From NCBI RefSeq assembly GCF_026768455.1, contig NZ_JAPPVQ010000005.1:62001-126000 (forward strand): DNA of 64,000 bases. Direction: 5' to 3'. Below the pieces are notes generated by a model. The model did no database searches. It worked only from the letters and a program-made list of their open reading frames with translations, and was not told the DNA's origin. The translations under genes and the position numbers were made by a program. Positions 33,896 through 47,986 of this stretch are shown piece by piece. The stretch comes from Candidatus Nitrosotenuis cloacae (GTDB taxonomy: Archaea > Thermoproteota > Nitrososphaeria > Nitrososphaerales > Nitrosopumilaceae). The number at the start of each line of letters is the position of its first letter. Within the stretch, counting starts at the first letter, position 1.

Positions 33896-33979
33896 GCGGG
33901 GGTCGCCTAGCCTGGTAGGGCGTGGGATTGCTAATCCCATGTCCGCAAGGACCCGTGGGTTCAAATCCCATCCCCCGCG
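33896..33979 (+). tRNA. tRNA-Ser (anticodon GCT)
   Basis: An 84-nt tRNA. The acceptor stem GCGGGGG (33896-33902) pairs with CCCCCGC (33972-33978), followed by discriminator G. The anticodon loop TTGCTAA carries GCT, which reads AGC/AGU serine codons. A long variable arm (TGTCCGCAAGGAC) confirms a class II serine tRNA, and the T arm GTGGGTTCAAATCCCAT is normal. The 3' CCA is not encoded. No intron. Its last 7 nt are inside the target-site duplication of the casposon, so the gene stays intact. Confidence 0.95.
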
Positions 33980-33992
33980 CCTTTCTTTTGGG
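33973..33992 (+). repeat. casposon target-site duplication, left copy
   Basis: The sequence ccccgcgcctttcttttggg occurs here and, identically, at 47901-47920. It covers the last seven nucleotides of tRNA-Ser plus 13 nt of its downstream flank, and the terminal inverted repeat starts at the next base. The border is uncertain by one base because the flank also has a C. Confidence 0.93.
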
Positions 33993-34024
33993 GTAAAGAC
34001 AGAGAGTACTCATTTGACCTTTTT
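33993..34024 (+). repeat. casposon terminal inverted repeat, left
   Basis: Begins GTAAAGACAGAGAG and ends CATTTGACCTTTTT. Against the reverse complement of the right end it matches at 26 of 32 positions: the first 10 and last 12 bases are identical and the six mismatches lie in the middle. The outer block and the inner CATTTGACC block are the likely casposase contacts. Confidence 0.93.
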
Positions 34025-34136
34025 AGGGGGATTTTGATGAAAAGTCTAATCAACAACATTACGTATCAGAATCAGTTTGAAAAAGCACAATCTGTCATAT
34101 TACATACGAAAAAAGTTCCAAAACCAATTCGTACAG

Positions 34137-35720
34137 ATGGAATTAATGGATCCAGATCGATTTATCAGGTTTTTAGAAGAGTATGGAATACGCATAAGAA
34201 AAGAACGCTTAGAATCGCTTGAAGAAGAAGGGCTTTTACAACCCATCGTTCGTTTTGTGGTTCCAAAACAAGTAAGACGAAAAGGTGGAGGAATGATGAC
34301 TGGAACCGATGTTATGCAATGGTACTACAAGCATACCAAATTTATCGAATTTCCTAAGAAAGGTGATTATCAGCCTTGGAAAAAATTTGCTAGTAATTAC
34401 AAAAAAGGTGATCATTATGAGAAGAAAATATTCTACTATCACCCATTCCAATTGTTACAAGTTGAAAATATTCTAAAATATCAAAAATTCTATTTTTACT
34501 ACAAGGAATCATATACAGATAAACACCTTCAACGAATTCTACAAAATATCAAACTAGATAAAAAACATAGAAAAAAAACATTTCACATATCTCCTCTTAG
34601 TCAACCGGATAAGATTGGTTTCTTGATGTTACTTGAAGAAGCATATCGATTCCAAGCATTTGGAGGAATGTCCATACCAATGAATATGGACGGTAAAAGA
34701 AATTCGTTTGAAAAATGGATAAAATGGAGAAAAACGAAGTTCTCTGCCCAAAAATTGCTTGAGCAAAGCAGGCTCACTATCGACGAAGTCAAATGGTTGT
34801 ATGACTGGTTTGCTAGATCTTCCATCATGATGGATCCGTTAGAAAGATGGTATGATCTAACTCGAATCATGAAGACATCTGTTCTACAAAAACTGAAAGG
34901 TGATGCCTTGAAAGCCCAACTATACTACGACATTGTCAGAATGATTGCAATGTTTTTGTTTGATTTGGGACATAAAGTGGAAGAACCAGATCTACAATTT
35001 GATGAAATGAAAGGGAAATGGAAAAATGAGATCTATGGAGTTCCTGAATTTAACTATTCGTCAAAACAGACACAAAGAGGAATAATAAGATATTTTACTC
35101 GAAAAACTAATACTGTCGCATTTGTCCTAGTGGAAGGTAACACTGAAGTAAAAATCATAGAGAAGATTTTTGAAAAACTGGATATAGATCCAGTGGATGA
35201 TGGATACAATATTATTAATTATGATGGTCTTGCAAATCTCACTCCAATTAAACTACGCTCAATAATACAGATGTCTAACGCAGATAACATTCCGATTTTC
35301 ATAATTGCAGATAATGAATGTAATGCCAAGGATAAAATACAAAAAATCAAAAATTCAGTTGTATCAAAGTTTGATTATGAGATATGGAATAAAAGCTTTG
35401 AAGAGGATAATTTCGGTATTGATAAGGTTTTGAAATTGATTAACAAATATTTAGAAAAACATAAGGAGAGAATATCAAAAAATGATATCAAAACTAAGAT
35501 TAAGACTAATTCGCTAATTCGTGCCGTCGAATTGGCATATCGCGAAAAATATTATGGTGATATCTTTGTCAAAATACCCTCTAAACCCGATTTAGCGTTG
35601 GAATTGATTAGGAATAGATTAAGAAAAATATCACGTGGTAAAAAAATTGGCAAAGAATTACCAATAGAGCAATCGCTTCATAGGATGTTCAGATTTGTTG
35701 CAACGTATGAACCAGCCTAA
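34137..35720 (+). CDS. winged-helix/TOPRIM-domain protein, casposon cargo
   Basis: About 527 residues from ATG 34137 (MELMDPDRFIRFLEEYGIRI); an in-frame TTG at 34077 would add 20. The N-terminus looks like a DNA-binding helix pair of MerR type (KERLESLEEEGLLQPIVRF). A TOPRIM-like domain lies at ~330-400: FVLVEGNTEVKIIEKIF (Glu ~333), INYDGLANLTP and IFIIADNECNAKD (DNE where DxD is usual). There is no Walker A ATPase, unlike OLD proteins. First gene after the left terminal repeat. Probably a nuclease of unknown target, perhaps defence. Confidence 0.65.
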   Translation: MELMDPDRFIRFLEEYGIRIRKERLESLEEEGLLQPIVRFVVPKQVRRKGGGMMTGTDVMQWYYKHTKFIEFPKKGDYQPWKKFASNYKKGDHYEKKIFYYHPFQLLQVENILKYQKFYFYYKESYTDKHLQRILQNIKLDKKHRKKTFHISPLSQPDKIGFLMLLEEAYRFQAFGGMSIPMNMDGKRNSFEKWIKWRKTKFSAQKLLEQSRLTIDEVKWLYDWFARSSIMMDPLERWYDLTRIMKTSVLQKLKGDALKAQLYYDIVRMIAMFLFDLGHKVEEPDLQFDEMKGKWKNEIYGVPEFNYSSKQTQRGIIRYFTRKTNTVAFVLVEGNTEVKIIEKIFEKLDIDPVDDGYNIINYDGLANLTPIKLRSIIQMSNADNIPIFIIADNECNAKDKIQKIKNSVVSKFDYEIWNKSFEEDNFGIDKVLKLINKYLEKHKERISKNDIKTKIKTNSLIRAVELAYREKYYGDIFVKIPSKPDLALELIRNRLRKISRGKKIGKELPIEQSLHRMFRFVATYEPA

Positions 35721-35774
35721 TATTACAAACCGTGTATGATTAATGGTGTATCGTACAAATTAACTGAAAGAATT

Positions 35775-36989
35775 TTAATTTTGTAAATACTTTTCATGTA
35801 CGTCGATAAAAATGGGCTTTGTTTTTTCCCATAGAATACTTGTAATTTTTTCAATCAAAAGACTTGTTTCTACAGACTTATCGCCAAATTGATGCTTCAT
35901 CGTGTTTCGGAGTTGCTTACGTCTTTCATGTGGTGGGGGGTGATCTCCAACAGCACCATCTTTTTGCCCGCCCTTCCAATACCAATCCTCTTTTCCAGTT
36001 CTCAGAATGCATTCAGCTCTTTGAATTATTTCATCGCAACTAAACAATAATTCTGCGCCACTATAGCTAATTGGATCATTATGTCTATCTCTTAGTCGTG
36101 GTGCCAAAAGCATTAACGGTAGGCCTAGTGCGTCCGCTTCATATTCCTGAGGCCATTCAAACATTATGTTATATGCATCACCGATGTCAAGTAGTGTTTT
36201 TTGTGACTTCTCGCTATCTACATGTCGTAAAAGAATGTGCGAATATTCATGTCCCATTATGAAAACTTCCATAGCATATCTCAAATGTGATGCAAGATAA
36301 GAAAATGGTGCTTCCAGATAATATTGTGGTGCAGCTCTAACTTGACCGCGAATCAAATAAGCTAGAAACATTTGTTGAAATCTGTTCAAAATACTTGTCT
36401 CATTATTTGTTCTATCTAAAACCTGTTTTTCGTCAAAAATGAATTCGGCGTGATTGTCTTCTTTTGTATATGGAAAACATTGCGCGATGATCTTACTCAA
36501 TAGATTGCAACAATGAAATGTTTCAGTGCCGAAGACAATCAAATATTCATTATTTTTAAAGCCACCATAGCTAGCTGCATTTAGAGTTCTTATCGGAACA
36601 GTACCAAATGTTGGTCTTACTATATTCATGTTTAAATCTTGTAATGTATAATTAATTCCAGTCTGTTTATTCAGATATCCAAACGAAGATATGGTATTTT
36701 CAATGTCTTCAGCAAAATCCAGCAACATACTGTAATCACTTCGATTTTCATATTTACTAGGTAATTGCAACTTCTTCACTTTTTCGATATTTTCTTTCAT
36801 GTGTTTTCTCATTTCAGATATTTCTTCTGGACTTGAAAATTCTTTTTCAGTATTAAGTACGTCTTCTATCCAATTTTCCGCTTTTTTTTCATATAGATCT
36901 AATGTTTTTAGATATTGTTTGGGATCAATATTCGATTGTCGTAATGTCTGCTCTTGAAGATATTCTAAAAATTCATTAACAGTAGTCAC
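35775..36989 (-). CDS. HExxH metallopeptidase-like protein, casposon cargo
   Basis: A 404-residue soluble protein. A zinc-peptidase site is clear: GHEYSHILLRH (H247, E248, H251), then EYEADALGL (E282-D286), the third-ligand Glu pattern of gluzincin-type enzymes. The N-terminal 120 residues are helical and charged (EISEMRKHMKENIEKVKKLQ). No signal peptide or membrane segment, so it acts in the cytoplasm. Not recognised as ImmA/IrrE, whose HTH partner is absent. Faces the TOPRIM gene tail to tail. Confidence 0.6.
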   Translation of the reverse strand: MTTVNEFLEYLQEQTLRQSNIDPKQYLKTLDLYEKKAENWIEDVLNTEKEFSSPEEISEMRKHMKENIEKVKKLQLPSKYENRSDYSMLLDFAEDIENTISSFGYLNKQTGINYTLQDLNMNIVRPTFGTVPIRTLNAASYGGFKNNEYLIVFGTETFHCCNLLSKIIAQCFPYTKEDNHAEFIFDEKQVLDRTNNETSILNRFQQMFLAYLIRGQVRAAPQYYLEAPFSYLASHLRYAMEVFIMGHEYSHILLRHVDSEKSQKTLLDIGDAYNIMFEWPQEYEADALGLPLMLLAPRLRDRHNDPISYSGAELLFSCDEIIQRAECILRTGKEDWYWKGGQKDGAVGDHPPPHERRKQLRNTMKHQFGDKSVETSLLIEKITSILWEKTKPIFIDVHEKYLQN

Positions 36990-37021
36990 AATTAACTGAT
37001 TTCTGTAATAGTATATTGATT

Positions 37022-39700
37022 TTATTGTACCATGAAAAATAATAATTTTAATTTTATATTTTTTGAAATTTTATTACAGTTGTGAGTTTGAATGTTATTT
37101 TTACAATTCCATAATGTCTGTTTTGAAATTCCCACTTTCTTCACATCCTTAGGCTTCAAATCCAGTATTTTATCGCTAATTCTTCTAAACTTTTCATCCA
37201 AATCTTCCAAATTCTCATACACTTCATAACTCCCAGAACCAACTCCCACAATCTCAGACTCGTCCAGATTGTTGCTCTCTTTCCCAATATGGACAATCCC
37301 AGACACAGAAACATGCCTTCTCTGCAAAACTCCCACATCTCCTTCCAGTTTTGACTCGGAATGGTTCAGGTACTCCAAAAACACGTCCCAGAACGGCTTC
37401 CAGTATTCCTTTCCTTGGAATTTGTGCCTAGACTTGGAATTATAATCCACAAATTGCCCATAAACTGCATATCTTGCAGGCTTGACAAACGGAGCCAAAG
37501 GCTTGATCAGCTCTCCTGTCTCTGGATTGATGTGATTTGAGAATCCCAGTATGCAGAAATTAAAAGGCTTGAATTGGTTTCTGTAGTCTTCGTTTTTGTT
37601 AAATTCTGACAGTCTACCAAGCAGTCTTGGATTTGTTGCCACAAATTTTGATATTGCATACTTGTTTTCGTATTTGAAATACAGTTTTTCCAGCGTTGTT
37701 TTTCCATAGTATAGATTCAAAATATCATGCCAGATTTCCTTGTTCCAATCAAAATTCTCATTTTCATTTGAGAATGGATTCAACAAATGACCCAACCCAT
37801 GAGCAGAATAATCATTATCATCTATTGTGATTTCATTATTCTCAATTGAGTAAAGACAATATCTCTTTGCAGATATTCCATAAAACAATACATTATCTCT
37901 CTCTATCTTGAAAATATCTGAATCAAAATTGTAAGGATTTAATCCCTGAAAGAACTCTTGAATTTCCTTTGTGTGTTCTGGCGGAATCATCATGGAATCA
38001 GTATCACAGTATGCATGAGTTTTTCCATGTTTAGATAATAGAATCTCAGTTGTAGCTAGTAACAATCTGGATGCTGATGTAATCGATATGGCAATAATAG
38101 GATTAAACATGAATCCTAACTTTTCTATCTTGGTCTTGTTTTGTTTGAAATGTTCAATACCGTAAACGTCAACTGGAATTTTCTTTGATTCATCCTGTGT
38201 TGTAATTTCCACAAAGATTCCATAGCTGATTGCATTAACTATTATTTTGATGATTTGCTGTCTTGGGTCTTTTTTCTGTTTTAGTTCCTGTCTGTATTCG
38301 ACTAGTTTTTTGAACAGATCATCCTTGTATGGATTGATTTGGATTCCCTGAATGTTGATGGATTTCAGTCCTTTTTGCATCCCATCTGGGAAGAACTTGT
38401 ACGCATGAATGATTTTTGGAGTCTTGCCAGTGTAGAGTTTTGAGGTTAGGACATCAGCAATGCTGTACCATAACGGAGCCTTTGAGGCAAGATGGTTGAC
38501 TCCTATATTCCAGACGTGCTTGTTTCCGTATCTTGCACGTACAGGCAAGACATCAGACTCAGGCTCGATTTGTACAATTCCCTGCAATCTAGTCCAGATT
38601 TCCGGCTTTTGCACGTCCTGTATGGTGAATTTGTCAATGAATTGAGTAATTTCATGCGTAGCCTCACGATACTCGATTCTCTCTGCGATTACAAACTTCC
38701 AGAGGTTTTGCAGGGTGCAGACAGTTGGATACATTGAGAGAAAGTCAAGGACATCTACCCGTGTTGGAGTTTTCCGAATCTTGCACTCTGTCCTTCCGCC
38801 AAAATAACATGACATTACATGACCTAGAACATCTGGTGAGAATTTCAGGTTCTTGTTCAGAAACGAATCGACTCCGATCATTTTGAGAAATTCCTTCCCA
38901 ATTGATGCAGGAGTGTATGCTTTTGTAATTGGAATTTTCAATCCATAGGAATCAAACTCTTTTTTGGCATTTTGATACAATGAGTATGTGGAATCTACAT
39001 CATTGATGCAGTACCGGATGTATTGTGGTGTAATCTTGCCGTGTTCTTTGACTGACTGCTTTTTGTATTCCGTCTTGAATGTCTCACATGCCGATTCCAG
39101 CGAATGCTTTCTGTCTGTCAGTGCATGACATAGTGTACGCAGGTCGAGCAAGTTTCCCCGAAAGTTATTGTTCTTGTTCTTTGTACTGCCAAACTCGATA
39201 AATGACATTGTACTTGTGATGTGGGTAACATGCAATCTAGGATAGTCGAGATTCTTTGATAGTACCAATGAGAATCCGCCTTTTCTTCTGAATCTGGCGT
39301 TTGTTGACTTTATTGCGATTCTGGACAAATCAAATGGAAGATTGAATCCGACACACAATGATTCCAAATCATAGACTTCATGAAGAAAGATTTGCCTGAA
39401 TTGTTCTAGTGTGTACAGAGTGATTTTGTTTCTCTTGGAAAATTGCTTTAGGATTCCAAGTTCCTTGTTTTTTACTATTTGTGAGTCGTAGAATAATGCA
39501 TGGTGATCCAGTTTTCCATGCTGGAATATTTTGAAATATCCAAACTTTAGGTTCTGGAACAAATCTGTCGTGGTTTCAGTGTCAAAGACTAGAATCCTGT
39601 CAAATTTGGTCTGCATCTCAGGCTTGGATGCGGGTAATTTCGTACCTAGTTTGAGCCTAGGTTTTGTGTAGGCACGGATTGCAATTGGTTCAGGATTCAT
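37022..39700 (-). CDS. polB: family B DNA polymerase of casposon
   Basis: An 892-residue polymerase presumed to replicate or repair the element. The exonuclease is intact: Exo I FDTET (D40, E42), Exo II FNLPFD (N120, D124), Exo III YCINDVD (Y230, D234). The polymerase is intact: motif A DFLSMYP (D319), motif B KIIVNAISYG (K485), motif C CDTDS (D566, D568), and KRY at 612. Thaumarchaeal casposon polymerases are classed with protein-primed PolB; I cannot confirm TPR inserts by eye. Residues 845-886 form an HTH-like tail that matches the Cas1 C-terminus. Last gene of an HTH-HNH-polB operon. Confidence 0.93.
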   Translation of the reverse strand: MNPEPIAIRAYTKPRLKLGTKLPASKPEMQTKFDRILVFDTETTTDLFQNLKFGYFKIFQHGKLDHHALFYDSQIVKNKELGILKQFSKRNKITLYTLEQFRQIFLHEVYDLESLCVGFNLPFDLSRIAIKSTNARFRRKGGFSLVLSKNLDYPRLHVTHITSTMSFIEFGSTKNKNNNFRGNLLDLRTLCHALTDRKHSLESACETFKTEYKKQSVKEHGKITPQYIRYCINDVDSTYSLYQNAKKEFDSYGLKIPITKAYTPASIGKEFLKMIGVDSFLNKNLKFSPDVLGHVMSCYFGGRTECKIRKTPTRVDVLDFLSMYPTVCTLQNLWKFVIAERIEYREATHEITQFIDKFTIQDVQKPEIWTRLQGIVQIEPESDVLPVRARYGNKHVWNIGVNHLASKAPLWYSIADVLTSKLYTGKTPKIIHAYKFFPDGMQKGLKSINIQGIQINPYKDDLFKKLVEYRQELKQKKDPRQQIIKIIVNAISYGIFVEITTQDESKKIPVDVYGIEHFKQNKTKIEKLGFMFNPIIAISITSASRLLLATTEILLSKHGKTHAYCDTDSMMIPPEHTKEIQEFFQGLNPYNFDSDIFKIERDNVLFYGISAKRYCLYSIENNEITIDDNDYSAHGLGHLLNPFSNENENFDWNKEIWHDILNLYYGKTTLEKLYFKYENKYAISKFVATNPRLLGRLSEFNKNEDYRNQFKPFNFCILGFSNHINPETGELIKPLAPFVKPARYAVYGQFVDYNSKSRHKFQGKEYWKPFWDVFLEYLNHSESKLEGDVGVLQRRHVSVSGIVHIGKESNNLDESEIVGVGSGSYEVYENLEDLDEKFRRISDKILDLKPKDVKKVGISKQTLWNCKNNIQTHNCNKISKNIKLKLLFFMVQ

Positions 39701-40025
39701 GGTACGTGTTTTCCCCTATCTCCCGAACTAGGTCAGCTAATCCGATTAGAAGACATGCGGTTTTCTTTTTCTTTCTCTTGTTTTTCTTTGACCAGTCTTT
39801 AGGCCAGTTGTACTGTTTTCTTGAAAGTCTGCCATGACAGATTCTACACAATGCAATTACAAAATCGCTGTTGCTTTTTCCACCAACATGATGATATTCC
39901 AAATCAAAAGGATCAACATGCCCACAAATCACACAAGACCCTTGGGCATCAAAGAATTGCTTTAGCCATTTGTTTTCCTTGATCAATTGCTCAATAGAAT
40001 CAAAATAATCACCCAAATCAGTCAC
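39690..40025 (-). CDS. HNH endonuclease-like protein of casposon
   Basis: A 111-residue protein with an HNH-type zinc/active site: SCVICGHVDPFDLEYHHVGG (C-x2-C, then HH), followed by ALCRICHGRLSRKQY (C-x2-C-H). The C-terminus is very basic (SKKNKRKKKK). HNH genes next to polB are a standing part of casposons. It overlaps the HTH gene upstream by 4 bases and polB downstream by 11, so the three are translated from one mRNA. Confidence 0.85.
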   Translation of the reverse strand: MTDLGDYFDSIEQLIKENKWLKQFFDAQGSCVICGHVDPFDLEYHHVGGKSNSDFVIALCRICHGRLSRKQYNWPKDWSKKNKRKKKKTACLLIGLADLVREIGENTYHES

Positions 40026-40525
40026 CTAGAATAAATTGAGAAAAACTCGGCATCCTCTCGTCTTTCCAGTATCGCAAAAATCTTTACAGTGTTGGTTTCA
40101 AGAGTGTGAATTTTGCCGTAAATGTCCGTGATTCTTGTTTTCTTGAATGGTAACAATGCGGATCTGTCATGCGGCAATCTGCCTATTGCGGAATGATATT
40201 GTCCGATTGTTGTTGCACGTCGATTACCTCTGACTGTGATGTAAATCTCTATTCCGTCTTTGTAACTGCGAACCCTTCTTAGAAGATTGTCTGATTTTTT
40301 TGCAACCAGCCTGCGATTCTTTTTGTATAGTGCAGAACCAACATATTTTTTGACCGTAGATGGAGAAATTCCGTATTGTTTGGATGCAGTTTTGATTGAT
40401 TTGCCGTCACGCATTTCATCTAAAACATGAAGTGAGTCTTCGTATTTTGCAAGTTGTTTAGGCGATAGTGAATCTAGATTAGTTGTCCAAGGTTTTGTTT
40501 TCCTTGGACGTCTTTTTGAATTCAT
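40022..40525 (-). CDS. helix-turn-helix protein of casposon
   Basis: A 167-residue basic protein. Residues ~30-65 hold a Hin/homeodomain-like HTH (LDEMRDGKSIKTASKQYGIS, PSTVKKYVGSALYK). The C-terminal half has beta character (GIEIYITVRGNRRATTIGQY, RITDIYGKIHTLETNTVKIF). First gene of the polB operon, facing the divergent winged-helix/cas1 operon over a 94-bp promoter gap, so it may regulate both or bind the element's ends. Confidence 0.75.
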   Translation of the reverse strand: MNSKRRPRKTKPWTTNLDSLSPKQLAKYEDSLHVLDEMRDGKSIKTASKQYGISPSTVKKYVGSALYKKNRRLVAKKSDNLLRRVRSYKDGIEIYITVRGNRRATTIGQYHSAIGRLPHDRSALLPFKKTRITDIYGKIHTLETNTVKIFAILERREDAEFFSIYSR

Positions 40526-40567
40526 TTACAATGCCAGAAAAAACCCATCTAATAGGATGGAAAATGA

Positions 40568-40655
40568 CAAAGTGTACTACCCTTAAATCGTGCGTAGTTC
40601 TTTCTAATCTAGGCACAAAATGGGCAAGAAATTAGATTTCAAAGTGTACTACCCT
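40568..40655 (+). repeat. pair of 16-bp direct repeats at divergent casposon promoter
   Basis: CAAAGTGTACTACCCT occurs at 40568-40583 and, without a mismatch, at 40640-40655, 72 bases apart. The first copy is in the gap between the divergent HTH and winged-helix genes; the second is inside the first codons of the winged-helix gene. The layout suits a pair of operators for autoregulation. Confidence 0.6.
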
Positions 40656-41276
40656 CATAGAGACTATCTGCTAGCCATGAAGGTTCTCACGGTACTAGCA
40701 ACCCGCTCCGAAATATCCAGCAATGTGATATCCCGTCTTTTGGCAGATACAAGACATGATTCCTATCCTCACAGTAGAGTCAAGAACACCTTGATTCGGC
40801 TTGCAGATTCCGGATATGTCAGACAAAAGCAAATTGAGCAAAAGAAACAGATACAGAACAACTGGACTATTACGCCATCTGGAATTCTAACATACATGTT
40901 ATTTACAGACGACAAAAACTATAGAGAGTTAATTGATAGTAACTCTGAGAGGACGTTTTTTAGGACTATATTGATTTTAGATAAAAGTGAAAAAAGAGGA
41001 TATGTTGACAATCTCATCGAATTACTCAAAAAGTCCAGTAATAATCCTCTTGAAATGGAGAAGATTGCACTTTCATGGTATTCAGATATCCGAAAACGTA
41101 TCAAAGACCTCAAAATAAATTCTGAAAAATATCCAGAATTGTACAAGCTCAGAAAAGAAATTAAAAATGATGACATGATGTTGCCTGTATTTTTGTCCAA
41201 ACCCCATAATGCCTCCAAGCCACGTTCTACATTTGGTACCACATTTGTTGACTCTATCTTTCAGAGATACTCTTAA
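40620..41276 (+). CDS. winged-helix regulator of casposon
   Basis: A 218-residue protein whose first ~90 residues are a winged helix (HRDYLLAMKVLTVLATRSEI, SSNVISRLLADTRHDSYPHS, RVKNTLIRLADSGYVRQKQI). The remainder is helical and charged. It lies 10 bases upstream of cas1 on the same strand. Likely a transcription regulator of the cas1 operon; it could also assist the casposase. No recognised family beyond the fold. Confidence 0.7.
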   Translation: MGKKLDFKVYYPHRDYLLAMKVLTVLATRSEISSNVISRLLADTRHDSYPHSRVKNTLIRLADSGYVRQKQIEQKKQIQNNWTITPSGILTYMLFTDDKNYRELIDSNSERTFFRTILILDKSEKRGYVDNLIELLKKSSNNPLEMEKIALSWYSDIRKRIKDLKINSEKYPELYKLRKEIKNDDMMLPVFLSKPHNASKPRSTFGTTFVDSIFQRYS

Positions 41277-41286
41277 GATCTAGTGA

Positions 41287-42519
41287 ATGATTCAAGAATT
41301 ATTGAATCCGTTACTGATTTCAGGATTTGGAACCTCGATCAATGTTGAAAAAAGAAAACTGGTAATCCAGAACAAACTAAAAAATGAAATTCATGAATTC
41401 TATCCTCACAGAATCGAACACGATTCCATAATAGTTGACGGTCACACAGGACACATTACATTCGAGTCAATGAGGTGGCTCACAAAGCACAATGTCTCAT
41501 TGTCGCTTTTGAACTGGGACGGGAACCTTCTCTCAGTCACGCTTCCAGACTCGCCAATATCAGGCAAACTGCGCATAAAGCAGTATCAAAAGTACCTTGA
41601 TGCCAAAACTAGGCACAAAATAGCCACGGAATTTGTCAAATCCAAGATAGGTTCCTCGCTTAATCTGCTCAAAGAACTATCAAAATTCCACGACTTTGAT
41701 TTTGAGAAAGCAAAACAAGGGTTTGATTCTGAGACAAGATTCTTTTTGGGAAAACCAGTCCACAGCATCCAAGACATTTTAGGATATGAGGGAAGAATAG
41801 CACGATTCTACTTTGATGCGTTACAAAAAATATTTGAAAAAATTGCACCCCAGTTCCACTTTACCAGCAGGTCAAACTATGACCACAAAAGAGCCGACCA
41901 TGCATCTGATGAAATCAATGCACTGTTCAATTATGGATATGCAATACTGGTCTCAGAGACAAGAAAGGCAATCAACTCTGTAGGTCTTGATGCAGAGATT
42001 GGCTTTTTGCACGAGATCTTATCAAGCAGGACTCCATTAGTTTATGACTTGCAGGAATTGTTCAGATGGATAATCGACTATTCAATCATACAATTACTGG
42101 AAGACCACAAACTCAAAAAGTCTGACTTTGTCGTTACTGAAAACTATCACATCAGATTGAGGGAAAACACCGCAAAACTGTTGATTGAAAAGATTCGATT
42201 CAACTTTAATCATAAAATGCCTTACAGGAAAAAGAATTTCACATACCAAAACATACTGTACGACCAGATACAACAGATTGCCAATTTTATTTCAGACAAA
42301 AGAAAAGACATCGAGTTTGTCGTCCCACATTGGGTGATTAACCGCGATGATAACAGTATGTTGAGGAATCGAATTCTATCTTTAACACCGGATCAAAGAA
42401 GAAAACTAGGAATCAACAAATCCACTTTGTGGTATATGAAACGGAATCTAAATGACGGCAAGACCGTCAAGATATACGGCAAGATTCTGTCCAAACTTGA
42501 TGAAATAGACAGAAGTTAG
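41287..42519 (+). CDS. cas1: Cas1 family casposase (integrase)
   Basis: A 410-residue Cas1 that inserts the casposon by its terminal repeats. The N-terminal beta domain has the Cas1 pattern TFESMRWLTKHNVSLSLLNW. The catalytic triad is intact: E168 in ILGYEGRIARFYF, H242 in GLDAEIGFLHEIL, D254 in TPLVYDLQELFR, with the DEINALFNYGYAIL helix between. Residues 363-404 form a C-terminal HTH extension (RRKLGINKSTLWYMKRNL), which known casposases use to bind DNA. Neighbours are PolB and HNH rather than cas2, which separates it from CRISPR Cas1. Confidence 0.95.
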   Translation: MIQELLNPLLISGFGTSINVEKRKLVIQNKLKNEIHEFYPHRIEHDSIIVDGHTGHITFESMRWLTKHNVSLSLLNWDGNLLSVTLPDSPISGKLRIKQYQKYLDAKTRHKIATEFVKSKIGSSLNLLKELSKFHDFDFEKAKQGFDSETRFFLGKPVHSIQDILGYEGRIARFYFDALQKIFEKIAPQFHFTSRSNYDHKRADHASDEINALFNYGYAILVSETRKAINSVGLDAEIGFLHEILSSRTPLVYDLQELFRWIIDYSIIQLLEDHKLKKSDFVVTENYHIRLRENTAKLLIEKIRFNFNHKMPYRKKNFTYQNILYDQIQQIANFISDKRKDIEFVVPHWVINRDDNSMLRNRILSLTPDQRRKLGINKSTLWYMKRNLNDGKTVKIYGKILSKLDEIDRS

Positions 42520-42520
42520 A

Positions 42521-42681
42521 ATCTTGACGGAATCTAAATGGAATATCGATAAAAATCGTCTAAACAGGCACGATTTAGCTCCATCAAGACTTTTTGTTTA
42601 GATAAACAGGTGTGACGTTTAGACTGCTTTTGCATCTAGATGGAACCTAAACAGGCACGGAATTTAGACTGGATTTAGTCT
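42521..42681. repeat. iteron-like repeat cluster behind cas1
   Basis: The 202-bp gap between the convergent cas1 and PIN-like genes is full of short repeats. TAAACAGG occurs at 42561, 42603 and 42648 (spacings 42 and 45). GA(C/T)GGA(A)(T/C)CTAAA occurs at ~42527, ~42640 and inverted at ~42572-42586. TTTAGACT occurs twice and AGACT/AGTCT form an inverted pair at ~42666-42681. It resembles an iteron origin or protein-binding array and is not a CRISPR. Confidence 0.6.
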
Positions 42682-42721
42682 GTATGGGTGTTCTGTATAG
42701 ATCACTCATCCATGCACTGAA

Positions 42722-43168
42722 TTATCTAATTTCTGATGGATGCATTATTCTCAATCCATACGTTCTTGTCAAGCCGCTTTCATCAAGTCTTGTTTTCAAT
42801 CGTCCATCAGCTGACACCAATATTGCATTTGTTGATACTGCCAATCTAATCAGATACACATCATCTGGAGGAATACTTTGTTCGTTTTGTAATGTTGCAG
42901 GAGTATTATCGGCAATCTTGAGCTTGCCACCATACATTATCATCTCAAGTAATTTTGCAGTAGCTGAGGCGGATCTAACCGTGCTTTCTAATCGCTTTAG
43001 CATGGATCTGTACTTTTCTAATAATTCTACAGTACAATGGACATAATCACATCTTCTAAGTATGTCATTTAACAATCCCAAGCATGTGGGGTCGCCATCA
43101 CCAGTTTCATTTTCAACTCTGGCAGAAAATTCCATAATGTTTTCATCTAGAATAAGTTCCAGCGTCAT
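42722..43168 (-). CDS. PIN-like nuclease partner of AAA ATPase
   Basis: A 148-residue protein with PIN-domain character: early Asp in ELILDENIME (D8), acidic helix residues near E48/E51, then PDDVYLIRLAVSTNAILVSA (D102, D103) and DGRLKTRL (D121). The order and spacing fit the PIN acidic cluster, although the central part is short. It overlaps the ATPase gene by 4 bases and is encoded after it. PIN proteins are usually RNases of toxin type. The coupled ATPase suggests a sensor-effector pair. Confidence 0.68.
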   Translation of the reverse strand: MTLELILDENIMEFSARVENETGDGDPTCLGLLNDILRRCDYVHCTVELLEKYRSMLKRLESTVRSASATAKLLEMIMYGGKLKIADNTPATLQNEQSIPPDDVYLIRLAVSTNAILVSADGRLKTRLDESGLTRTYGLRIMHPSEIR

Positions 43169-44415
43169 TTTTTCTTCAAATTTTCAATGAATTTGTCTAT
43201 ATGTCCGATATTTACTTCAAAAAATCCTTTCATTCCACCTTTTACCTCGCCCCTTTCAGTCACTTCTAGTTTTGAAGTCTTGGTAGTACCATCAATTTTG
43301 TCAAAATAATACACTGTAAGATCCTCAGGCAGAATTTTACCATCCATTACTCCTTCCAACAGCCCAATCAGAATGTGTTCGCTATGAGTAGTAATTATGA
43401 ATTGATGATTTTCTTTGGTTGAATCATCTATCAAAACTCTAGAGAGGCTTGTTTGTGATGCAGGGTGAAGAGAGATTTCAGGCTCATCGATGAAGATAGT
43501 CGCATTAGGTTGTGCCATGGCAAGCTGCATAAATAAAAAGATTGACTGATTCAAACCAAATCCTTCGTTTGTAATCCCATATTCTCCGTATTTGTCCTTG
43601 TTAACTATTCTTGCACGTTTTTGCGGTAAGTTTCTCACATGAATGCTGACATCCGGAATAACCTGACGAGCAAACTCGGTGATCTTTTCTTGTATGTCAT
43701 ATTGGTGCGCCATTGTAGTAACTGACATTTCCGCCTGTCGTGTTACACCCTTACTAGTCTGAATTTTTGCAACTTCATCTAATAACTGATATGATGATTG
43801 ATCAAATCCCCGTGTGGCAGGAATTAGATAACATAGTTCTAATTGGTTTGTGAAGGTATTCAGAAAATTGTTTAATGCATCATGTACTCTGTCGTATAAT
43901 TCTCCATCATTTGATGAACCACCGCCAATCATTATGAAATTTTTTAAGCTCAGATTTTTTCTAAAATGAAATTGTCCTCCTTCAAAATCCAATCGTTGTT
44001 CTTGCGGGGTCACATTTCGTTTTAACGATTCTGCAAACCTATATTTTGTACTTCCATCAATCTCGTAGTCTATTCTGTTTAACCCGCGTTCGTTGAATTC
44101 AAATTGAAATTTGTATGAAATATTTTCAACATCTAATTGAGTAGCTATATCTTTAGTGGGAATCATATTTCCCTTGATCATAATTTTGATTGTATCATCT
44201 TGTGATTGTCTTGATTTTACTGTCTGAAAATCATCCAGATTAATCAAATCCCCATTCCATTGGATTTGAGTATCGGATTGTTTTAGTAATGCAATGGCTT
44301 GTGATAAACTTGATTTTCCAGAGCCATTTTTTCCAATAAAAACGCTAATTTTGCCTAATTTTAGGCTCGTATCCAGATGGCTTTTGAAATTATGAATGTA
44401 AAGGTGGCTAAGCAT
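43165..44415 (-). CDS. AAA15/AAA21-type ATPase, casposon cargo
   Basis: A 416-residue ABC-class ATPase of the RecF/SMC-like kind used in defence systems. Walker A is GKNGSGKSS (28-36), the D-loop region is in FGLNQSIFLFMQLAMAQP, Walker B is ATIFIDEPEISLHPAS, then FIITTHSEHILIGL. It has no TOPRIM or other nuclease at the C-terminus; the nuclease seems to be the separate PIN-like protein downstream. This is like the two-gene ATPase/effector layout of Septu or PARIS, but the effector differs. Confidence 0.82.
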   Translation of the reverse strand: MLSHLYIHNFKSHLDTSLKLGKISVFIGKNGSGKSSLSQAIALLKQSDTQIQWNGDLINLDDFQTVKSRQSQDDTIKIMIKGNMIPTKDIATQLDVENISYKFQFEFNERGLNRIDYEIDGSTKYRFAESLKRNVTPQEQRLDFEGGQFHFRKNLSLKNFIMIGGGSSNDGELYDRVHDALNNFLNTFTNQLELCYLIPATRGFDQSSYQLLDEVAKIQTSKGVTRQAEMSVTTMAHQYDIQEKITEFARQVIPDVSIHVRNLPQKRARIVNKDKYGEYGITNEGFGLNQSIFLFMQLAMAQPNATIFIDEPEISLHPASQTSLSRVLIDDSTKENHQFIITTHSEHILIGLLEGVMDGKILPEDLTVYYFDKIDGTTKTSKLEVTERGEVKGGMKGFFEVNIGHIDKFIENLKKK

Positions 44416-44470
44416 GAATTAATGAATGATTTAATGAATTATAATTTTGTTGTATCATGCACCTTGGGTC

Positions 44471-44890
44471 TTAATTAACTGGGGCTCCACCATTTTGTAA
44501 TTTCAGAATCTTTTTACACTTTTCAAATGCTTCATTGTTTTTGTTGGTAAATGCTAGGTCTATGCTATTCAGGAGATCTTGTTTAATCAGAATATCAAAA
44601 CTATCTACATACGTTCGATATATCATGACTAGTTTTTTTAATTCTATCACTTTTTTGTTTGTTCTTCCAGCCAATCTTGGTATGGCCATCAAAGCAAGCA
44701 CCATCAGTATCATGATAATCGTGACAGTTATTTCTTGATTAATGACATTTGGATATTTTATAAAATTTGTTAGTCCTATTAATGCTGCAAATATTGCCAC
44801 TACGATGTAAACAACATTAAGCAATTCTGTCGGTTTTGCATAATACAAATTTAAAAAATCGATTACCTGTTCAGAGAAAGATGTTGTCAT
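44471..44890 (-). CDS. small two-span membrane protein, casposon cargo
   Basis: A 139-residue protein with two membrane segments (LLNVVYIVVAIFAALIGLTN and EITVTIIMILMVLALMAIPR) and a soluble C-terminal helix region of about 60 residues. It lies 55 bases upstream of the AAA ATPase on the same strand and may share its transcript, which would add a membrane component to the ATPase/PIN pair. No family recognised. Confidence 0.62.
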   Translation of the reverse strand: MTTSFSEQVIDFLNLYYAKPTELLNVVYIVVAIFAALIGLTNFIKYPNVINQEITVTIIMILMVLALMAIPRLAGRTNKKVIELKKLVMIYRTYVDSFDILIKQDLLNSIDLAFTNKNNEAFEKCKKILKLQNGGAPVN

Positions 44891-44956
44891 TCTATTACCA
44901 CATGTTTCAAAATTATTAACATTTCTAATTTTCTAATAATTATGTAAATATCAATA

Positions 44957-45901
44957 ATGCAATCATTTCTTCTCAAAACAAAAACCAAAAAATCATTCCT
45001 AGAAAGATTATCGTCATTAAAATATTCCACAAGAGAAAACTATCAGGCGTCATTACACAGATTTGAGCAGTTTTGTAATTCCAATTATCAGGGAAGAACA
45101 AGTGAAAACATCATACATGAGCTAAAATCCATCAAACCAGAAGAGCGAGATGATGCGTATTTTGGACTATTGCAGGACTTTGTGAACTGGCTTGTCTCGC
45201 TTGGTCTTTCCCATGCCACAGTCAACATGTACTTTCAGGTTGTAACATATTATTTTTCATACCATGGCATAAGGGTTCATCATATTGACATCAGGCAGAA
45301 TGTCAAAAGACCAAAAAAGATCAAGGAAAAACTCCACGTCCTAACCAAAGAGGAAATACAAAGAATATTCGAATTTGCACCTCAAAAACGAAAGATGCTG
45401 TATCTGACATTGATTGGTTCCGGCATGAGGATACGGGAATGCGTTGCACTGCGAAGAAAAGACTTTGATCTTAGTTTCCCAAAGCGCATTAAAATCGAAA
45501 TTCCAGCACAGTTTACAAAGGCACAGACTGCCCATTCCACATTTGTATCAAAGGAGGCTGCCAGATATCTAAAGCCACATTTGGAATCATTACAATACAA
45601 TGATTTGGTATTTGCCACAAACCACACTCCATATCATGCATCTATGACAGAAATCGAGGCGTTTACCCGATATCGTAGCAGGGCAGGACTGACTGGACAA
45701 TACGAGTCAACAGGCAGGCATCATATCTCCTTGCACTCGTTTAGGTCGTATTTTTTCACAAGAGCCAGACGTGTTCATGATACTGACATTGCCCATGCGA
45801 TGGTGGGACATACTACCTATCTTGATATGTATGACAGGAAGGATGATGAGGAAAAGTTAGAGTTGTATCTTACGGTAGAATCCGAATTACGAATTAACTA
45901 A
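44957..45901 (+). CDS. tyrosine recombinase on casposon
   Basis: A 314-residue site-specific recombinase. The N-terminal SAM-like DNA-binding domain covers ~10-105 (RENYQASLHRFEQFCNSNYQ). Catalytic residues are R158 (GSGMRIRE), K188 (QFTKAQ), H260/R263 (SLHSFRSYF), H285 (MVGHTTYL) and Tyr292 (DMYDRK). Full length and uninterrupted, so not the split type. The ends of this element are casposon ends, so the gene is either cargo, a resolvase for element dimers, or a remnant of another integration system. Confidence 0.87.
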   Translation: MQSFLLKTKTKKSFLERLSSLKYSTRENYQASLHRFEQFCNSNYQGRTSENIIHELKSIKPEERDDAYFGLLQDFVNWLVSLGLSHATVNMYFQVVTYYFSYHGIRVHHIDIRQNVKRPKKIKEKLHVLTKEEIQRIFEFAPQKRKMLYLTLIGSGMRIRECVALRRKDFDLSFPKRIKIEIPAQFTKAQTAHSTFVSKEAARYLKPHLESLQYNDLVFATNHTPYHASMTEIEAFTRYRSRAGLTGQYESTGRHHISLHSFRSYFFTRARRVHDTDIAHAMVGHTTYLDMYDRKDDEEKLELYLTVESELRIN

Positions 45902-45966
45902 AGCAATTGCACAAAATAGAATGATTTTATTTCAATTATGATGGGCAAAGTTAATCTGTAATCTCA

Positions 45967-46839
45967 ATGAAACTTTCCAATATGGATGTACAACTTCCAA
46001 AAGAACCAATTATAGATCAAATCGTTAAGGTAAAGACGGGGCTTAAAGGAGAGAATGTAATTTACATTAAACATGAAATTCAAAACAATCAAAAACTAGA
46101 TCACAAAATTTATGGAGAGTATGCTGTCAAACAATTGTCTCGGCAACTTCGTAATGCAACTATAAAATTCCACATTCTTACAGATGTACAATTCATTAAA
46201 TGGCAATCTGAGACCTCGTATTTGCATAAACCGACATTTTCAGATTATTCTAAGAACAGCATAACGGATCCTGAAGAATATCTATATTCTTCTAAAGACG
46301 CAGTAACCAAAGGAAATTTTGCAATTTCAGTGAATAATGTAAATGGCGTGTTTTTTGTTCTCGATAATACTCATTCTGTCATCACATCAAAGGATGTTGA
46401 ATTGAAAGTTTGGGAGACATGGAAGGAACCCATTCCACCATCAGAACTCATTATAAAAAGGAAGAAATTTGTTTCCGCTAAAGAAGAATTGGAGAAAGCA
46501 GAAAAAAATTTAGAGCGAAATCCTGAGGACGTGTTCAACTATTTAAGAACCGCAATAGATCTATCGATTCAGGGACAATTCGGATTTCAGAAGATCAAAA
46601 ATATGCCAGAGTTTGTTGCCGATGCAGAAAAATACAATTTTCCACTACCATCGTACAGTTTGATTAGTGCAATTTTTTCGGAAGGTAACAAGAGATTACA
46701 CGTTGGTAAAGTCGCAACCAAATTTGATGCTAAAAATTCCATTCAGATAGTCAGAGATTTTGTCGAAGATCTAGCCAAGATAGACATTTCTCAGGAACAA
46801 ATTAAAGATTTCAAGAATAAATCAAAGTCAGTGGCGTGA
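45967..46839 (+). CDS. hypothetical protein, casposon cargo
   Basis: A 290-residue soluble protein. The first ~140 residues are beta-rich with TYR/LYS-rich loops (GENVIYIKHEIQNNQKLDHK, GNFAISVNNVNGVFFVLDN). The last ~120 are helical (AKEELEKAEKNLERNPEDVF, NYLRTAIDLSIQGQFGFQKI, IFSEGNKRLHVGKVATK), a pattern that recalls DUF4145/HEPN-like helical domains, but the HEPN R-x4-6-H motif is not clear. Function unknown. The following membrane protein gene is 51 bases downstream on the same strand. Confidence 0.6.
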   Translation: MKLSNMDVQLPKEPIIDQIVKVKTGLKGENVIYIKHEIQNNQKLDHKIYGEYAVKQLSRQLRNATIKFHILTDVQFIKWQSETSYLHKPTFSDYSKNSITDPEEYLYSSKDAVTKGNFAISVNNVNGVFFVLDNTHSVITSKDVELKVWETWKEPIPPSELIIKRKKFVSAKEELEKAEKNLERNPEDVFNYLRTAIDLSIQGQFGFQKIKNMPEFVADAEKYNFPLPSYSLISAIFSEGNKRLHVGKVATKFDAKNSIQIVRDFVEDLAKIDISQEQIKDFKNKSKSVA

Positions 46840-46890
46840 TGAAATTAAAGGACAAGACATTGATATATTGGTGACTACATTCATGTTTGT

Positions 46891-47640
46891 TTGTACGATC
46901 CATCTGAGTTAGGTCTTGCCTCCGTAATTACTGCGGTACTTACGGCCATAGGTCTGATAATTGCAATAATAATCAACACGGTTCAATTGAGAGGACAAAA
47001 AAATCAGTTGTTTATTTCTAATTTTTCAGAAATAACAGATCATGTGGGTGACGATGTTACAAAAGAATATAGAAGGTGGTTATTCTACGACGAAGAAAAA
47101 AAGACATTATTTGAGAAATTCAAAAAAGAATATGGTTTAGAATATGTTAAAAAATCGAACGAGGAAAAATCACAATACAAAGAAATTGAAAAGGCAGTTT
47201 GGCATTTAGCGTCACGTTATGATAGATTTGGGTTTATTTTAGATCAGGATAAAGAAATGAGGAAAAAAATATCAGATTATCACGGTCAAGTTATCAGTAA
47301 GTTATGGTTAGCATTGGAACCTCTTATTGACATGAGAGAAGACATAGAGCGAGATGGAGCCTACAAATATTTCAGAAAGATAGGTAGGAAAGCAATTAGT
47401 GCAAACTACTCTTCAAAAGAATCAGGCATAATTGATAAAAAACATCTACGACTCACAGCAATCGCAATAGTGGCAGGTGCATTTATCACAATATTCTATA
47501 ATTTGTTTGACATTTGGTTGACCCCCATTCTTCAGGCTCCGGAACAAGCAACTCTCAAAACTTCAGTATCAGGAGTATTAGCAATTATCGCAGGTTTAAT
47601 TATTTACAAGTATTACACCAAATCTCTAAAGCTAAGTTAG
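46891..47640 (+). CDS. DUF4760-like membrane protein, casposon cargo
   Basis: A 249-residue protein (TTG start). One N-terminal membrane segment (VITAVLTAIGLIIAIIINTV) is followed by a cytoplasmic helical domain with basic/acidic helices (KEYRRWLFYDEEKKTLFEKF, WHLASRYDRFGFILDQDKEM). Two C-terminal membrane segments follow (IAIVAGAFITIFYNLFDIWL and SGVLAIIAGLIIYKYY). The N-terminal TM plus helical domain resembles DUF4760 proteins. It is the last gene before the right terminal repeat. Confidence 0.62.
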   Translation: MYDPSELGLASVITAVLTAIGLIIAIIINTVQLRGQKNQLFISNFSEITDHVGDDVTKEYRRWLFYDEEKKTLFEKFKKEYGLEYVKKSNEEKSQYKEIEKAVWHLASRYDRFGFILDQDKEMRKKISDYHGQVISKLWLALEPLIDMREDIERDGAYKYFRKIGRKAISANYSSKESGIIDKKHLRLTAIAIVAGAFITIFYNLFDIWLTPILQAPEQATLKTSVSGVLAIIAGLIIYKYYTKSLKLS

Positions 47641-47815
47641 ATATTTTACGATAAATCCACCCTTTCATAATTAGTCTTAACAAAGAGCAAGATCCCTCAA
47701 ACCTAAACCTTTGATGTTTTTTGATCATATGTCATCAGCACGCTATCGTTTTGTTATCATGTGATGAAAGATTGTCCAAGTCAAATTTTTGATCAGATTT
47801 AACATCTGAGTCATC

Positions 47816-47842
47816 AAAAAGGTCAAATGAACCGTCTCTGTC
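47816..47842 (-). repeat. second, subterminal copy of the casposon terminal repeat
   Basis: Read on the minus strand this segment is GACAGAGA, four variable bases, then TCATTTGACCTTTTT. Both blocks and the spacing equal the left terminal repeat exactly, and it lies 27 bases inside the right terminal repeat. The 175 bases before it (47641-47815) hold no ORF, only AT-rich sequence with GATCA/TCATC-type short repeats. Confidence 0.8.
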
Positions 47843-47868
47843 TGTGTTAATTTCTCAGATTTCGATAA

Positions 47869-47900
47869 AAAAAGGTCAAATGGCACATCCCTGTCTTTAC
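47869..47900 (-). repeat. casposon terminal inverted repeat, right
   Basis: Read on the minus strand it begins GTAAAGACAGGGAT and ends CCATTTGACCTTTTT, matching the left repeat at 26 of 32 positions. The target-site duplication follows directly at 47901. Confidence 0.93.
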
Positions 47901-47920
47901 CCCCGCGCCTTTCTTTTGGG
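47901..47920 (+). repeat. casposon target-site duplication, right copy
   Basis: Identical to 33973-33992 over 20 bases. It is the second copy of the tRNA-Ser 3' end generated on insertion; the rest of the tRNA gene is absent here. Confidence 0.93.
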
Positions 47921-47986
47921 AATATAGTTAGGAAGTCAGATTTTGCACTTTTTCGGACTAAAATGAGGGAGGGTTTTTGATTAGGG

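Follow-up and report, generated by a model that had tools for sequence, protein, structure and literature searches.

Family 2 casposons such as MetMaz-C1, AciBoo-C1 and NitNCS1-C1 encode a casposase in which Cas1 is fused to a helix-turn-helix (HTH) domain, a family B DNA polymerase (PolB) which is described in passages of PMC4046053 as carrying a similar HTH at its C-terminus, a separate HTH protein and a probable HNH nuclease, and they are characterized by a GGG(G)TATAG-like terminus, a 14-bp target site duplication (TSD) and a target at the 3' end of a tRNA gene. For the casposase of A. boonei, passages of PMC6614799 report that only the five terminal residues of the terminal inverted repeat (TIR) are needed in vitro, and its authors infer a role in excision or replication for the remainder of the TIR; for that of M. 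mazei, passages of PMC6977970 report a tetramer on the target and a requirement for the HTH. The need for the terminal residues, taken together with the need for the HTH, fits a TIR composed of a tip for Cas1 and an inner block for another protein.

The casposon analyzed here, which lies complete within a 64-kb stretch of DNA (the window), is like the family 2 elements in the features listed above, its HNH nuclease being a putative one. It is unlike them, as far as the passages describing them extend, in having a subterminal direct copy of its TIR and an XerC-like gene; such a gene is also reported for NitNF5-C1 (a passage of PMC6563490). No description of a nested or subterminal TIR copy in a casposon was found in the titles, abstracts and passages that were searched.

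The element and the inner copy at its right end

The casposon (33990-47903; 13,914 bp, with blunt GGGG...CCCC ends) is inserted at a tRNA-Ser (GCT) gene identified by ARAGORN (33896-33981, + strand). It is flanked by two copies of the 14-bp TSD CGCGCCTTTCTTTT (33976-33989 and 47904-47917, both +), which agree at 14 of 14 positions, and the left copy covers the final 6 nt of the tRNA gene. The TIRs start with GGGGTAAAGACAG; the left TIR, GGGGTAAAGACAGAGAGTACTCATTTGACCTTTTT (33990-34024, +), and the outer right TIR, GGGGTAAAGACAGGGATGTGCCATTTGACCTTTTT (47869-47903, -), match at 29 of 35 positions, and both of these true ends carry the terminus GGGGTAAA. Because the perfect 14-bp TSD pairs the outer right end with the left end, the insertion was made by the outer right end and not by the inner copy described below.

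The casposase gene (41287-42519, +) encodes Cas1 with a C-terminal HTH; the protein matches the Pfam Cas_Cas1 profile (E = 4.8e-58), and its best solved relative, the M. mazei casposase 6OPM, aligns with it over the full length, including the HTH (residues 5-405, E = 2.3e-74). PolB (37022-39700, -), for which profile matches were weak, has a C-terminal HTH resembling that of Cas1 (Cas1 359-404 against PolB 841-886, 39% identity, E = 2e-5). Two smaller genes track PolB: one encodes a small protein judged to be a putative HNH nuclease from its residues and position (39690-40025, -; its Pfam match, to DUF968, is weak), and the other, which adjoins it, encodes the HTH protein HTH1 (40022-40525, -), whose HTH assignment was supported by profile search. 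With a Cas1-HTH fusion, a PolB that has a similar C-terminal HTH, TIRs with a TSD in the 14-15-bp range, and insertion at a tRNA 3' end, the element is a family 2 casposon. The XerC/XerA-like tyrosine recombinase gene lies within it at 44957-45901. Directly outside the right TSD the window contains a type-II casposon end, GGGAATATAGTTAGGAAGTCAGATTTTGCACTTTTT (47918-47953), and similar ends are present in five further genomes of the genus; no partner for it was found in the window, so that it appears to be what is left of an earlier casposon inserted here.

Inward of the outer right TIR lies a copy of the TIR core, GACAGAGACGGTTCATTTGACCTTTTT (47816-47842, -), which is preceded by TTAACACA where the true ends have GGGGTAAA, and which has the block AGAAATT (47849-47855, -) just before it. 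The motif GACAGAGA-N4-TCATTTGACCTTTTT occurs at three places in the window, namely the left TIR (33998-34024, +), the inner right copy (47816-47842, -, with 0 mismatches) and the outer right TIR (47869-47895, -, with 2 mismatches), where none is expected by chance and 0 of 100 shuffles gave any; the block CATTTGACCTTTTT is confined to the same three places across the whole 1.68-Mb assembly. The second right-hand copy noticed in an earlier sequence-only reading of this DNA is thus real, and so is the equality of spacer length that was claimed for it, which is 4 bases in the left, inner and outer copies alike. The two right copies have the same orientation and a period of 53 bp, with 26 bases between them. 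The left TIR has no second copy on its inner side. Since the inner copy is without the terminal GGGG and a search for a TSD copy beside it found none, it is not an integration end.

Nested ends in related genomes

Related ends were collected by scanning 250 genomes of the family with the pattern GGGTAWAGAY-N8..18-TTTGAC, which matched at 64 places in 44 of the genomes; 59 of the 64 matches were available as distinct ends, 58 were long enough for self-comparison, and 8 of the 59, which are without GGGG, were left out of one comparison of related ends. A strong direct copy lying 50-63 bp inside, measured from block to block, was found in 5 of the 58 ends: the right end in the window, an end in G098, both ends of one element in G047, and an end in G230. 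Two decayed nested pairs in G219, a genome from the genus of the window, were found separately from the self-comparison. The block-to-block spacings are 53 in the window, 53 in G098, 51 and 50 in G047, 63 in G230, and 52 and 63 in G219. The subterminal copies that the sequence-only reading had proposed to look for in related casposons are therefore present in four other Nitrosopumilaceae genomes. A dedicated scan for the nested pattern is by itself weak, because its 9 matches in 8 of the 250 genomes (6 of them judged on reading to be nested TIRs) compare with 6 matches in the reversed control. The nested ends may share ancestry, so that the counts are not independent.

Most related casposons are without an inner copy, and it is therefore an optional elaboration: among the 11 delimited casposons, 1 of 22 ends, the right end in the window, has a strong copy, and G037, the nearest casposon with the TIR type of the window element, has none at either end. 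A weak internal match of 13 nt in G181 was not counted as nested. An intact 14-bp TSD flanks the G047 element, both of whose ends are double, which indicates that elements of this kind move by their outer ends. This element (4.35 kb; L127 8320-12667, corresponding to G047:C26, about 156319-160666) has no casposase gene and encodes a 594-aa protein judged from its sequence to be putatively SIR2-like, and another end begins directly after its TSD. Viral contigs yielded no Cas1 relatives, and the nested layout was not found in the 4 inspected of 14 viral stretches, all 4 of which are repetitive collagen-like coding sequence; a wider scan of genome contigs gave 31 stretches, of which the 5 inspected comprise two casposon ends (L169, L181) and three simple or coding repeats.

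The seven nested pairs show which parts of the TIR are retained in the inner copies. GGGG is absent from all seven, an AGAAATT-like block precedes each of them, and the block CATTTGACCTTTTT is kept; in G098 the full 27-nt inner core is the same as the outer one. Over 15 pairs, with the left end in G047 excluded, the positions beside the inner TTTGAC that had not been part of the search pattern are 0.83 and 0.94 identical among nested ends (0.76 and 0.73 when that end is included), whereas identity is lower elsewhere, at 0.41 in the spacer, 0.32 in the linker and 0.29 in the DNA beyond the inner copy; the inner A block, at 0.45, is no better conserved than the spacer. The spacings of the nested ends, which may share ancestry, fall close to whole numbers of helical turns, 5 or 6 (R = 0.82, p = 0.006, or p = 0.005 when the G047 element contributes a single value), with spacings of 50-51 about a fifth of a turn out of phase. 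Inside six casposons of the TTTGAC type there are 5 extra TTTGACCTTT sites, compared with 0.76 expected; two of the five, from G181 and G201 respectively, share a mid-element position and may be conserved coding sequence. Four other casposons have no internal TTTGACCTTT site.

TIR type, polymerase cluster and target type

The TIRs of these elements fall into type I (GGGGTAWAGAYA...TTTGACC), type II (GGGGAATATAG...ATTTTGCACT, with type IIb in G138) and type III (GGGGATATAGTTAG...GACCCACGTGG). The TIR and the PolB are of the same type in all 14 elements for which both were seen, a count that leaves aside G158 and G035, whose TIRs were not found and whose type labels were taken from PolB; the HNH and HTH1 genes also track the TIR types, together with PolB. 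In the PolB tree type I forms a single clade (support 100/100). In the Cas1 tree a single type-I clade is rejected (AU test, p = 9.5e-5, with nine type-I rows that include G158 by its PolB label), and when G158 is excluded from the TIR labelling this tree still requires three changes. The independent switches of TIR type on the Cas1 tree are accompanied in 3 of 3 cases by a change of PolB and in none by a change of target (TSD) type, although three switches are too few for significance (sign test, p = 0.25). Two elements combine a casposase close to one type with a PolB of another: the G037 casposase is 75-82% identical to the type-II casposases of G035, G050 and G119, while its PolB and TIR are of type I, and the G159 casposase is about 70% identical to type-III casposases, while its PolB is of type I and its TIR is type-I-like with GTGTAACC.

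Target type changes little over the Cas1 tree. It is CGCGC in G000, G037, G050 and G119, CCCAT in G181, G201 and G180, and AGCA in the remainder, with the type read at one end only in G119, G027, G098, G174, G155, G118a, G118b, G150, G175a and G175c; G027, which likewise has AGCAC in its left flank, is outside the count of switches. The HTH core of Cas1, LGINKSTLW, is nearly invariant over elements with quite different TIR blocks. TIR type thus follows the PolB-HNH-HTH cluster and not the casposase, while target type follows Cas1. Because HNH and HTH1 travel with PolB, this association does not single out one reader protein; a search upstream of HTH1 for an operator shared with the TIR block gave no consistent site. 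The genomes G150, G156, G175 and G118 each have many type-III ends, often back to back and separated by a TSD (the counts include double matches for GGGG), which gives the impression that casposons multiplied and piled up at shared sites.

A proposed compound end and the alternatives to it

These comparisons suggest that the recognition signal in the TIR belongs to the DNA-copying genes of the element rather than to its inserting enzyme. The TIR would then have at least two parts, a tip and an inner block: the outermost GGGG(TA) would be the reacting end which the casposase joins to the target, and CATTTGACCTTTTT, about 23 bp inward of the tip, would be a putative recognition block for a protein encoded by the element, for which the most likely candidate is the polymerase module, acting through the C-terminal HTH of PolB or through the neighbouring HTH1. 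At the right end CATTTGACCTTTTT and the remains of the whole TIR core are repeated 53 bp in with the orientation kept; the second site would bring a second protein to the end for recognition, synapsis or the start of replication, and would not be another place of integration. An inner copy in which the block is kept and the tip is dropped fits a second site for a protein other than Cas1, and not a spare integration end. From sequence comparison we infer the binding of the block by a protein, the identity of that protein and the contribution of the second site. We give about an even chance to the proposal which treats the inner copy as a duplicated recognition site of a compound end, with its block most likely read by the polymerase module. 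Somewhat short of even is the chance we give to the fuller proposal in which PolB or its HTH partner would read the TIRs and Cas1 the target, the two modules would be swapped separately, and the nested copy would be an extra site for polymerase loading or replication start in register with the end.

The sequence-only reading had offered two accounts of the inner copy, a second casposase-binding site that makes the ends asymmetric, or the scar of a smaller element or one-ended event in which the inner copy is an older end. The asymmetric second site is favoured by its recurrence in four more genomes, with conserved blocks within diverged linkers; its assignment to the casposase is doubtful, since the TIR type to which the conserved block belongs goes with the PolB gene cluster and not with Cas1. 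Binding of the TIR core by the Cas1 HTH, with an extra dimer loaded at the inner copy in the manner of multi-site transposon ends, is unlikely: the full inner core retained in G098 would suit such a site, as would the essential casposase HTH, whose role is left open in the passages seen of PMC6977970, but Cas1 does not predict TIR type, its HTH core hardly varies as the TIR blocks differ, and the published passages describe one short end per dimer for the M. mazei casposase and sufficiency of five terminal nucleotides for that of A. boonei. The other account, in which the inner copy is a former right end to which the outer end was added later, is very improbable, because a perfect 14-bp TSD and GGGGTAAA are common to the left end and the outer right end while the inner copy has neither, and because both ends of the G047 element are double inside a single TSD-flanked unit. 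The greater similarity of the inner copy to the left TIR, which the sequence-only reading had noted and which speaks for this account, holds only in the 27-nt core (23 of 27 positions for the inner copy, 21 for the outer) and is reversed over the full 35-nt TIR with GGGGTAAA (25 of 35 for the inner copy, 29 for the outer). An older end, a solo-TIR and a one-ended insertion were all rejected as candidates, since a perfect TSD flanks the outer end and the inner copy has neither a TSD nor GGGG.

A neutral relic, that is, a duplicated or tandem-inserted end which is now functionless and decaying, has a real but minor chance of being the correct explanation. Tandem casposon arrays at a single site are known (a passage of PMC6563490), ends lie back to back in G047 and G175, the type-II end stands immediately past the right TSD in the window, the nested pairs of G219 are decayed, and the inner copy is missing from most relatives; however, neither a TSD nor a left end lies between the inner and outer copies, the linker is no copy of the DNA on the inner side of the inner copy, conservation of the B block extends past the searched positions but not into its flanks, and about the same spacing recurs in five genomes. 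A 53-bp tandem duplication through slippage was also rejected on the mismatch between the linker and the DNA inside the inner copy, which implies that any such duplication is old.

If the TIR does belong to the polymerase module, then its length of tens of bases, when the integrase needs about five, becomes a question of binding, and the replication of casposons and their exit from the chromosome likewise become open to direct binding experiments. The enzyme from which that of CRISPR adaptation descends would in that case have chosen no more than the target, with a different protein marking the DNA for transfer.

The inner copy is like the solo-TIRs of M. mazei, as described in passages of PMC6977970, in being an extra TIR-like copy that is not paired as the end of an element; it is unlike those solo-TIRs, which have a specific length of 19 or 31 bp, in that it sits within an element and has no adjacent TSD of its own. 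A TIR in another genome (L121 / G098:C28:10327) has a T-tract that continues inward into ACCCCCCC; it may be a solo TIR with a copy of the target on either side.

Tn7, Mu and Sleeping Beauty (IR/DR) have more than one direct copy of an end-recognition sequence at an end, their two ends are unlike one another, and these sites are bound by the transposase. The casposon resembles these elements in that its right end, and that end alone, has direct copies of the end sequence, so that its ends differ; it is unlike them in that its block tracks the polymerase module, in its spacing and protein family, and in that only one of its ends is double.
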